This document shows, one piece after another, positions 3,546 to 62,490 of a stretch of DNA of 64,000 nucleotides. Source of the DNA: Paenibacillus graminis (GTDB lineage Bacteria; Bacillota; Bacilli; Paenibacillales; Paenibacillaceae); NCBI RefSeq assembly GCF_000758705.1, contig NZ_CP009287.1:5952001-6016000 (forward strand), in the 5' to 3' direction. The first letter of the stretch is position 1; each line of letters starts with the position of its first letter. The notes under the pieces were generated by a model. That model was not told the origin of the DNA. It searched no databases and saw only the letters and a list, made by a program, of their open reading frames with translations. A program made the position numbers and the translations under genes.

Positions 3546-3691
3546 CCTTCTCATCTGCCAACGACCGTAAACTGCACGGCATTGTAGGAATTAGCACCAT
3601 GACATTTGTGCAGAATACCATGTAACGCATTCTATACAAATCGGTTGCCGGGCTTCATCGGGCCTATCCCTCCGCCACTCTCGATAAGAGT
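3546..3691 (-). promoter_or_regulatory. SAM-I (S-box) riboswitch upstream of metN
   Basis: Read on the minus strand the leader starts CTCTTATCGAGAG, then GGCGGAGGGA, then GCCCGATGAAGCCCGGCAAC, which are the P1, J1/2 and P2-P3 signatures of the S-box. The 3' strand of P1 is GATGAGAAG at 3547-3555. Binding of S-adenosylmethionine is known to favour the downstream terminator, so methionine uptake is shut off when SAM is plentiful. Confidence 0.96.
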
Positions 3692-19307: not shown

Positions 19308-19490
19308 ATGTGAAAAAAAGTGAACTTAAATCACTCCATTCCGCTTCCCTGCATGCGTCAACTGGAAAAAGGACAACTAATCTGCCCCATTCGTACACTT
19401 ACCCGTGAATTTGTTCATTTTAAGTTTACTTTTTCCACTATTGCCTCAGCAAGAGGCTTCTTTGTTTCATTTAAGTATACTAATTCCACT
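19308..19490. repeat. Four-box inverted element, copy 1
   Basis: Four related boxes: 19308-19331 and 19361-19381 in reverse orientation, 19417-19439 and 19469-19490 in forward orientation. Same-orientation boxes are 51-52 bp apart, the inner pair spans 79 bp and the whole element 182 bp. The forward consensus is close to TTAAGTATACTTTTTCCACT. The first box is the most diverged and lies inside the open frame that continues past the Toprim stop codon. Confidence 0.75.
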
Positions 19491-19510
19491 TCACCTTCCC
19501 TTTACAACAA

Positions 19511-19557
19511 GCAGAAACAACGGCTGCACCGTCTTAAAAGGACGGGAGCCGTTTCTG
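19511..19557. terminator. Large hairpin between convergent genes
   Basis: GCAGAAAC...CGGCT...CCGTC pairs with GGACGG...AGCCG...TTTCTGC around a TTAAAA loop. There is no good T-run on either side, so termination is a guess. It shares AACGGCTGCACCGTC with the terminator at 35526-35568. Confidence 0.5.
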
Positions 19558-43229: not shown

Positions 43230-43456
43230 GAGGTATGCGAGAGTACGAAAAGTGTGAGAAGCAGTAGGGGTTAAGGGGCAGGAAATGCGGTAACAGCTTA
43301 AGGAGTACAACCGATTCCCAGTTCAGGCACCCTTAGATTGCAGAATGTGAAATAGACACCCATGCGCTGTGCGCCACCTTAGAGGATGCAAATATAAAAG
43401 TGAAATGAATATGTAGGATAGACTGCCAGCAAAACAGCTCCGTGGTAGCAAGCCAT
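43230..43456. other. Spacer with no recognised feature
   Basis: Purine-rich plus strand, no open frame of note and no clear hairpin. It leads into the four-box element at 43457. Confidence 0.4.
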
Positions 43457-43637
43457 AGTGGAAAAAGGGAGCTTAAATTCCTCAGAAACTAACAATCTCG
43501 AGGTTAAAATGGAAAAAGGAAACTTAATTCAGCAATTTTCCCTTATCTGGAGTAAAACAGCTCAATTAGTGTACCTTTTTCCACTTCACCTGCCAGGTTG
43601 CTTGATGCTCAAGCAAATTAGCGATACTTTCTCCACC
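43457..43637. repeat. Four-box inverted element, copy 2
   Basis: Boxes at 43457-43478 and 43508-43528 (reverse) and at 43564-43585 and 43615-43637 (forward). Same-orientation spacing is 51 and 52 bp, the inner pair spans 78 bp, and the element 181 bp. Between the forward boxes TTGCTTGA/TCAAGCAA forms a perfect 8-bp hairpin. It lies between the glycosyltransferase remnant and the convergent GT2 gene. Confidence 0.78.
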
Positions 43638-43810
43638 TAACCAGCTGGAGCAATAGAGCCCGATGGTTTGGTTCGTGCATTGAGTTGAGGCTGAAGCAGA
43701 TGGAGTGATCAAGTACCTATAACCCAATAGCGTCCGCTCAAGTTATTGAACAAGATTACTTCATCCGGGAATAAAATATTATCTCGTCCCCTGCCACTGA
43801 AATCCAACCG

Positions 43811-61742: not shown

Positions 61743-61825
61743 CGGTGTAGTAGATGGCTGACGGTGGACGGCTGGTGGTTGGCTGGTGGACAGCAGGCGG
61801 ACGGCAGGTGGGACGGCTGAGAGAC
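61743..61825 (+). repeat. G-rich degenerate repeat
   Basis: About 80 bases built from GGCTG, GGTGG and GACGG words, with more than a dozen GG pairs on the plus strand and almost no longer G-runs. No open frame of note. Two-tier G-quadruplex formation is conceivable. Confidence 0.55.
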
Positions 61826-61973: not shown

Positions 61974-62154
61974 AGTGGGAATTAGTATAGTTAATTCATG
62001 GAAACTGCGCTGCATCAACATTTAGTGGGAATTAGTATACTTAAATTAGCGATAAACAAGGTCTGGCGTTACTTAGGACTAAATTAAGTATACTTTTTCC
62101 CACTCGCGGTGCTAGAGGAGAGAAATTGCTCAATTTAAGTTTCCTTTTTCCACT
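61974..62154. repeat. Four-box inverted element, copy 3
   Basis: Boxes at 61974-61995 and 62024-62045 (reverse) and at 62084-62104 and 62134-62154 (forward). Spacing is 50 bp within each pair, the inner pair spans 81 bp and the element 181 bp. The two reverse boxes both contain AGTGGGAATTAGTATA. The second and third boxes are reverse complements apart from about three bases. Best-preserved copy in the window. Confidence 0.82.
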
Positions 62155-62162
62155 TAAGTGGC

Positions 62163-62230
62163 GCACAAGTAGTACTCATTCGCAGACTCCAGCTGCTGCA
62201 CAAGTAGTAAGCTTTCGCAGATTCACAGCT
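62163..62230 (+). repeat. Two-copy 35-bp direct repeat
   Basis: GCACAAGTAGTA, then TTCGCAGA-TC, then CAGCT recur at 62163 and 62198. It lies directly after the four-box element. Confidence 0.65.
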
Positions 62231-62286
62231 ATATAGATTGAACTTGTGATTTTCTATTTTGGGATTTGGACGTGACTCCGGGGAAT

Positions 62287-62394
62287 GTTTGGACTTCCGG
62301 CCGCTGTGGACTGCAGATTTCTTAGATTTGTACCGCTGTTCGCGGTGGAAATCCGCAGACAAAGGCGGGTGCTAACGCTCCTACAGTTCCAAAC
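62287..62394. repeat. Palindromic ~105-bp element, copy B
   Basis: Ends GTTTGGA (62287) and TCCAAAC (62394) are complementary; inside, CTGC-x-GATTTC pairs with GAAATC-x-GCAG, and ACCGC/GCGGT forms the tip hairpin. The flanks CCGGCCGCTGT and ACAAAGGCGG match copy A at 36429-36533. Confidence 0.8.
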
Positions 62395-62490
62395 TTACTT
62401 CCCCCCACCATTTTATCCCTTTTTCTAATTTTCAAGTTCAATCTATATAACAAGCTTCACAATCGCCAGCCCAAGTGACCCTCGCCGCAA

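Follow-up and report, generated by a model that had tools for sequence, protein, structure and literature searches.

Four-box arrays in the window

The window, that is, the whole stretch of 64,000 nucleotides analysed here, contains three arrays of four short boxes each, all of them found where a preliminary description of this DNA had placed them. Array 1 (19309-19491) lies between convergent ORFs and consists of two boxes on the minus strand, R1 (19309-19331) and R2 (19360-19382), and two on the plus strand, F1 (19418-19440) and F2 (19469-19491), with weight matrix (PWM) scores of 11.9, 25.1, 32.3, and 29.3, respectively. The site is also filled in P. jilunlii (L101), which is the nearest named relative by the UbiA protein of the window (98%), so the window is regarded as Paenibacillus chromosomal DNA. 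Array 2 (43456-43638), likewise located between convergent ORFs, is made up of R1 (43456-43478, minus), R2 (43507-43529, minus), F1 (43564-43586, plus), and F2 (43616-43638, plus), which score 29.4, 36.7, 30.0, and 22.7. Array 3 (61974-62155), previously regarded as the best copy, comprises R1 (61974-61996, minus; score 17.4), R2 (62024-62046, minus; 20.7), F1 (62082-62104, plus; 31.0), and F2 (62133-62155, plus; 38.8). From 62008 onward this array, together with its right flank, aligns to the closest relative, G015. No strand is assigned to the arrays as a whole.

Other features were recorded in the same region. A second dispersed repeat of ~220 bp adjoins array 3 (62229-62449) and has many copies, at about 79-92% identity, in all eight relatives searched, including genomes with few arrays. 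Short tandem repeats stand on both sides of array 3 (61763-61819 and 62163-62230), and tandem repeats of other units also adjoin two arrays near 404200 and 2080400 of the genome. A G+C-rich hairpin-like module of the type ACGGCTGC..GTCC...GGAC..GCAGCCGT, recognised by eye, is present at 19520-19555 of the window and near 355010 of the genome; it recurs beside several arrays and also near the right edge of some of the insertion units described below. Finally, a SAM riboswitch at 3548-3690 (minus strand) exceeds the Rfam gathering score.

Box and array geometry in the genome

The TTAAGTATACTTTTTCCACT box, with up to 3 mismatches, has 5 matches in the window and none in 100 shuffles. The genome of the window (G000) is a single contig of 7.17 Mb, in which a slightly degenerate form of the box occurs 342 times (165 forward, 177 reverse), versus 2 matches for a reversed control pattern, and the matches listed are scattered along the whole contig. 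The geometry was studied in three 400-kb blocks plus the window, which amount to 1.264 Mb or 18% of G000. Among box matches with up to 4 mismatches in this sample, 44 of the 47 same-strand pairs are 49-53 bp apart, 29 of them at exactly 51 bp. Reverse-forward distances are mainly 58-59, 107-112 (~110), and 158-162 (~161) bp, and no forward-reverse pair was found within 260 bp. The fixed geometry claimed for the three copies therefore holds genome-wide, and the random spacing and orientation that had been set beforehand as refuting were not seen.

A weight matrix combined with a four-box model gave 70 candidates in the same 1.264 Mb, 62 of them at the threshold used hereafter, which by extrapolation corresponds to about 350 copies per chromosome (62 in 1.26 Mb). 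All four boxes are strong in 41 of the 62 elements; the total length is 180-185 bp, and the central spacer measures 35 bp in 38 of these 41. Half-elements with only two good boxes were also noticed at 579823, 2392601, 4897412, and 4935610.

Each box is dyad-like and 23-25 bp in size, within an array of ~183 bp. Neighbouring box centres are separated by ~51, 61-62, and ~51 bp, or roughly 5, 6, and 5 helical turns of 10.2 bp each, which supports the earlier suggestion that like boxes lie on one face of the DNA in an anatomy fitting protein binding. Every box is an imperfect palindrome, as is clearest in other species, so what the terms reverse and forward capture is the way in which the local box type is asymmetric. 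The reverse-reverse-forward-forward order itself is confirmed.

One repeat family without covarying stems

DNA alignments of at least 120 bp link 60 of the 62 elements into one family, and most of these alignments stop near the outer box edges. This similarity indicates that spacers are related within subfamilies and that the whole unit was copied. The spacers had been described as not alike among copies, which is wrong within subfamilies and true only between them. In a sample of 59 elements the best paralogue is 64-89% alike, hence no very recent copy was seen there.

Since the reverse and forward boxes are complementary by layout, and the central spacer has a weak palindrome, the element could act as an RNA with two nested stems, R1-F2 and R2-F1, an option that had been raised beforehand. 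Nevertheless, in the 41 strong elements, boxes of the same element are not more complementary than boxes taken from different elements (p = 0.31 for R2-F1 and p = 0.95 for R1-F2), and it is instead the boxes of the same side that are alike (p < 0.002). Moreover, the sole Rfam match in the window is the SAM riboswitch, which lies elsewhere, with none at the arrays. With no covarying stems found, a function as RNA is very improbable.

Genomic position and replication orientation

The 62 elements occupy 39 tandem, 19 convergent, and 4 divergent intervals, and none lies within a predicted gene. Compared with all intervals of at least 250 bp (166 tandem, 52 convergent, 46 divergent), the arrays differ (p = 0.005), bearing in mind that the gene calls come from a simple finder and that the elements lengthen their own intervals. 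A position bias relative to convergent gene ends had been proposed as a check, and the arrays indeed favour convergent over divergent intervals (19 vs 4; p = 0.0016).

This distribution bears on the possibility that the arrays are regulatory operators of an ordinary multi-site repressor or activator family controlling nearby genes. Dyad boxes of operator size at helical spacing would suit such a role. However, operators would hardly be expected with so few elements in divergent intervals, so many in convergent ones, and none inside a predicted gene; in addition, the neighbouring genes looked at are unrelated, and ~350 copies are many for an ordinary regulon. This explanation is therefore considered improbable.

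Orientation with respect to replication, the other positional check proposed earlier, was also informative. Copies that can be oriented by sequence, i.e. asymmetric ones, align with the replication arm (28 vs 7 on one arm and 6 vs 19 on the other, p = 2e-5), where the origin was assumed at position 1 and the terminus halfway, in agreement with the GC skew of the blocks. The same is observed in convergent intervals alone, where transcription gives no direction (9 vs 1 and 0 vs 8, p = 4e-4). Copies found only in the relative G028 follow the same trend (3 vs 1 and 0 vs 5), the second half of an IS-split element being unassignable.

Insertion, turnover and mobility

The complete genome of the relative G028 is syntenic in both of the stretches compared, with an identity that is mostly 90-95%. 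For 29 G000 elements whose flanks are syntenic there, a counterpart is present in 15 cases and absent in 13, and one element (397432) gives a weak alignment; the absent class also takes in sites where long unrelated DNA separates the flanks. At some syntenic sites G028 is empty, its flanks being separated by little or no DNA. At site 4852333, G000 carries a unit of ~392 bp, which is also present in the nearest relative, G015, where an additional ~430 bp follow on its right. In G028 and G033 the two flanks join to within 1-2 bp, whereas G027 and G035 have 243 and 79 bp, respectively, between them and no alignable array. Given these tight empty junctions and the lack of an alignable array in the other two genomes, a gain of ~392 bp is the simplest account. 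Dozens of other copies start within ~15 bp of the left junction of this unit, and a right-hand module is found elsewhere up to ~650 bp from the array. The common left junction and the distant right-hand module indicate that arrays travel on composite units. Similarly, site 354714 is empty in G028 and G033, with overlaps of 7 and 10 bp.

Protein binding had been preferred over a decayed transposon, a contrast that does not stand because several copies were brought in by larger composite units that inserted. The two views, mobility and protein binding, therefore do not exclude each other.

Ten insertion junctions revealed neither a common terminal sequence nor a constant target duplication. Overlaps of 7, 14, and 21 bp were present in three of them and none in the other seven, and six of the ten, judged by eye, lie just behind the T-run of a terminator-like sequence. 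A left-end motif, T[AT]TA[AG]GAAATTA, picked out by eye, proved not to be general, with 5 matches in 1.264 Mb and 2 of them within 400 bp of an element. A known IS or MITE with recognisable ends and target duplications, the other finding that would have spoken against the preliminary description, was thus not seen at these ten junctions. Two G000 arrays (in 1.26 Mb) and one G028 array are interrupted by inserts of ~1.2-1.4 kb. These inserts were considered as a possible autonomous transposon, but they look like insertion sequences of the IS3, IS4, and IS110 types (types assigned by eye on the basis of the transposase sequence), and each of them interrupts a box or the centre of its array. No autonomous element with the same ends was recognised in 1.26 of the 7.17 Mb, where only guest IS were found.

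The data on spread are in line with a selfish non-autonomous element, similar to a MITE or REPIN, in which the boxes would bind a trans-acting transposase, insertion would take place at replication forks, and box conservation would reflect descent from mobile lineages. One dispersed family with subfamilies, the gain at 4852333 with many copies starting near the left junction of that unit, the empty site 354714, and an orientation that tracks replication would all be accounted for. Nevertheless, the ten junctions share neither ends nor a constant target duplication, and the transposase genes between array halves belong to the interrupting IS. Furthermore, the Y1 transposase (RAYT/IS200 type; PF01797, a count that lumps both types) occurs in eight of ten array-bearing or pattern-positive genomes, with one match in G000, and is missing from the other two, G016 and G063. 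In addition, boxes are conserved in copies that stay put, as described below, and transposition alone does not explain this. A purely selfish element is therefore rather unlikely.

Constraint on boxes at sites shared with a relative

Sixteen G000/G028 pairs were compared, chosen by alignment of the syntenic stretch, with two placed by hand (501781 and 4977185) and two dropped for poor alignment (397432 and 4955308). Per aligned site, there are 106/1451 differences in boxes, compared with 301/1449 in spacers and 198/1141 in flanks. In all 16 pairs the box rate is below the spacer rate, and boxes differ about a third as often, with a box/spacer rate ratio of 0.35 (0.29-0.41) and a box/flank ratio of 0.42 (0.33-0.56) by bootstrap over elements. 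Base composition is not the reason, since A/T and G/C sites are both slower in boxes. Moreover, the rate per box position correlates negatively with the information content of the family (Spearman -0.75, p = 3e-5), so that the box positions which vary little within the family are also those that vary little between the species.

The distances are also kept. The central one is identical in 14 of the 15 pairs measured and 1 bp off in the remaining pair; of all three distances together, 30/45 are identical and the others differ by 1-2 bp. Gap events number 14 per 1269 aligned sites in spacers versus 24 per 964 in flanks (p = 0.013), in 14 pairs for which both species had yielded arrays. The boxes at fixed sites are thus specifically constrained, as would be expected of a chromosomal protein-binding array.

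Helical phase of the A+T patches

The A+T profile of the G000 spacers has a period of 10.2 bp (power 113 versus at most 5.4 in 1000 shuffles), and its patches share the phase of the boxes and are arranged symmetrically around the central dyad. It should be noted that such shuffles do not remove shared ancestry, which inflates the phasing test in G000; for this reason the test was repeated on 12 arrays of other species with other boxes. These gave an amplitude of 0.118 at 10.2 bp and a best period of 10.0 (shuffle maximum 0.049 in 2000), with a spacer phase of 0.04 versus 0.03 for the boxes, although two of the 12, L249 and L258, are near-identical orthologues. In the congener G016, eight arrays, one of which (3217450) has only three good boxes, exhibited weak phasing at 10.2 bp (0.061, where shuffles reached at most 0.052), and their peak at 8.5 bp was stronger.

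Differences between species point in the same direction. A/T to G/C differences in the spacers are rarer in the A+T phase (46/388 vs 45/228 in the G+C phase, p = 0.0095), and G/C to A/T differences are commoner there (36/170 vs 54/402, p = 0.024); the test is moderately significant and unpolarised, and a slightly different cut gives 39/366 and 33/148 for the A+T phase. This constitutes moderate evidence that the helical A+T pattern may be kept between species. Helical spacing and phased A+T patches, which would be expected of a protein-binding array, are therefore both present, less strongly in G016.

The same geometry with other boxes in other species

The TTAAGTATACTTTTTCCACT-type box was counted in 36 congeners: 28 have 0-6 matches, which is the control level, four have 30-72, and another four have 282-389. 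This count refers to one box type, and other types would be missed by it. The congener G016 has arrays of the same distances with near-palindromic boxes such as TATTAACTGTACTTTATGCAACTA. All eight arrays of the 400 kb fetched from this genome fall within 130 kb, at 3.088-3.218 Mb.

A box-blind scan, in which four 23-mers must resemble each other and no box sequence is given, was run over 78 loci of other species, most of ~20 kb. At a like-box spacing of 51 it returned 8 candidates, and ten alternative like-box spacings gave none; it does not separately prove the inner distance, as sliding over palindromic boxes gives 4-10 candidates at other inner distances. These self-similarity scans drop candidates that look like tandem repeats, and at a low cut (72) shuffled G016 gives 3 matches versus 14 in the real sequence. 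A palindrome scan of 80 loci identified 8 arrays (score of at least 57) at spacing 51, one match of 57 at spacing 46, and none at 56. It confirmed six of the eight box-blind candidates, its other two arrays being the P. jilunlii and S150 copies; L106 (81) and L109 (87) failed in it and are not counted as arrays. The box sequence changes from species to species, as in P. timonensis (AATACCTGCATTATTGCAGGTATT), P. faecis (AATTCCTGCAGATTTGCAGGAATT), and P. vini (ATTAACTGGAAAAACTACAGTTAAT), and Fontibacillus has one array too. The centre distances in these other species are 50-52, 61-62, and 50-52 bp.

With a pattern for one box class, matches were obtained in 37 of 98 Paenibacillus genomes, at least two in 26 of them and 114 in one, versus 13 of 98 with one or two matches each for the reversed control. 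A full four-box array was present in 9 of the 11 pattern loci examined, with L251 (at a contig end) and L254 (G000) under the cut. Among 198 genomes of the order, the pattern matched 27 and the reversed control 29, so that lone matches outside the genus are meaningless without a check for four boxes. Nine loci outside the genus were examined in this way: full arrays are present in three, which all belong to genus g33 of another family, and absent from the remaining six. G028 and G033 carry, in addition to the common class, a second box class of the AATTGCACAAAGTGCAATT type, which occurs as four-box arrays in L182 (7755) and L183 (7633). A phage origin was considered as well, and it is ruled against by viral stretches matching the two-box pattern, of which 0/40 have a four-box array (p = 2e-8 versus 9/11).

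Concerning array positions, 80 kb of G000 syntenic to G016 hold three G000 elements, two of them in intervals that also contain G016 arrays, and four other G016 arrays there have no G000 counterpart. Around ctaB, the arrays of several species sit in few intervals. These observations are only suggestive that positions may be conserved between distant species. In the blocks examined, almost no orthologues of the G016 genes were found.

A proposed wrapped protein-DNA complex as the best explanation

The explanation that best fits these data, to which a probability of about 60% is given, is that each element would be a docking site of ~183 bp for a putative sequence-specific chromosomal protein. 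This protein and its function are proposed from sequence patterns. Each box would bind a dimer, the four dimers would sit on one face of the DNA, and the phased, bendable DNA would wrap around them to form one nucleosome-like complex. The box-binding protein would evolve and the boxes would follow. Conserved dyads on one face, phased A+T patches, kept distances, and a changing recognition sequence are the expected traces of a wrapped complex with evolving specificity. As to the role of the complex, for which the data speak more weakly, it might mark or constrain the chromosome outside genes, in topological insulation, organisation, or segregation; such a role would agree with the location of the arrays behind gene ends and with the way asymmetric copies align with replication. 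Composite intergenic insertion units would disperse the copies, and selection would keep those already in place. The view of a mobile element explains spread and orientation and not conservation in place, and both can be true.

The interpretation given in the preliminary description is therefore retained in part: the anatomy fits protein binding, the geometry is fixed, and there are no RNA stems, whereas the unlike spacers and the non-mobility had to be given up.

Some observations speak against a docking site of this kind. Turnover is high, with 13 of 29 G000 elements lacking a G028 counterpart, which is not what a core chromosome function would predict, and copy number is very uneven among the 36 congeners. 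The orientation bias could also stem from the mode of insertion rather than from function. In the search for the binder, genes beside the arrays were considered and set aside, as ten proteins next to G016 arrays are unrelated by Pfam; these neighbours include a DEAD helicase, an aminotransferase, a carbamoyltransferase, VanW, a response regulator, a peptidase U32, and CtsR.

In its broadest and more tentative form, the proposal is that Paenibacillales might possess a bacterial counterpart of the positioned nucleosome, that is, a four-dimer protein wrapping ~183 bp at hundreds of replication-aligned intergenic sites, whose specificity would shift between species with the geometry kept and with boxes and protein co-evolving. 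A high-copy element that keeps its geometry and bending phase while its recognition sequence turns over is unusual. It gives a way into three questions: do bacteria assemble discrete, wrapped complexes at hundreds of defined positions; by what route can a DNA-binding protein shift its specificity if hundreds of sites have to change with it; and how do intergenic units that are mobile turn into parts of the host chromosome?

Comparison with known systems

No published description of a four-box element was found in a literature search, most subscription papers being outside its reach, and the available portions of papers on P. riograndensis and on palindromic repeats do not mention one. The earlier statement that no named element has such a layout agrees with this search, in which none matched.

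REP/BIME sequences are palindromic modules, intergenic and of high copy, which the accessible part of PMC2817692 describes as binding sites for several proteins. As far as that part goes, the arrays resemble them in being intergenic, high-copy, palindromic, and entered by insertion sequences. They differ in having four dyads at about 5/6/5 helical turns, a species-variable box sequence, and no reverse-forward covariation of boxes. REPINs, associated with the RAYT transposase, have conserved inverted ends and a variable spacer according to the portion of PMC3116915 available, two features that the arrays share; nevertheless, REPINs have two boxes there and the arrays have four. A REPIN/REP nature borne by RAYT was rejected, given that Y1 is found in 8/10 genomes only and that paired ends show no compensating hairpin changes. 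MITEs such as Bcr1 and RUP are named in the part of PMC3733652 consulted, and the arrays are likewise short non-coding dispersed units that are present or absent between species. Unlike MITEs, they lack uniform terminal repeats and target duplication at the ten junctions, and their boxes are conserved in place, so that a MITE defined by constant ends and target-site duplication was also discarded. Since the REPIN, MITE-end, and RNA tests failed and no published description was found, the layout is considered to be new, and the binder may still prove to be a known protein.

Regarding wrapping proteins, RemA and LrpC have been proposed, in the excerpted text of PMC8481266, to form an octameric ring, or a set of four dimers, that wraps DNA, and the target of RemA is given as AT-rich 7-bp repeats at 3-bp intervals. 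They are thus precedents in Bacilli for proposed wrapping octamers, although that text describes no such box array for them (PMC8481266). In the 12 genomes tested, RemA-like genes are always present and do not discriminate, and the main one scores 129.2-129.3 bits in all of them. A gene that hardly varies while the boxes do is a weak candidate for the binder.

Finally, nucleosome-positioning DNA carries A+T patches with a period near 10.2 bp that are symmetric about a dyad. The arrays depart from it in their sequence-specific boxes, and we infer the wrapping here, with no histone seen. With that DNA they share the ~10.2-bp A+T patches and the symmetry of these patches about the dyad.
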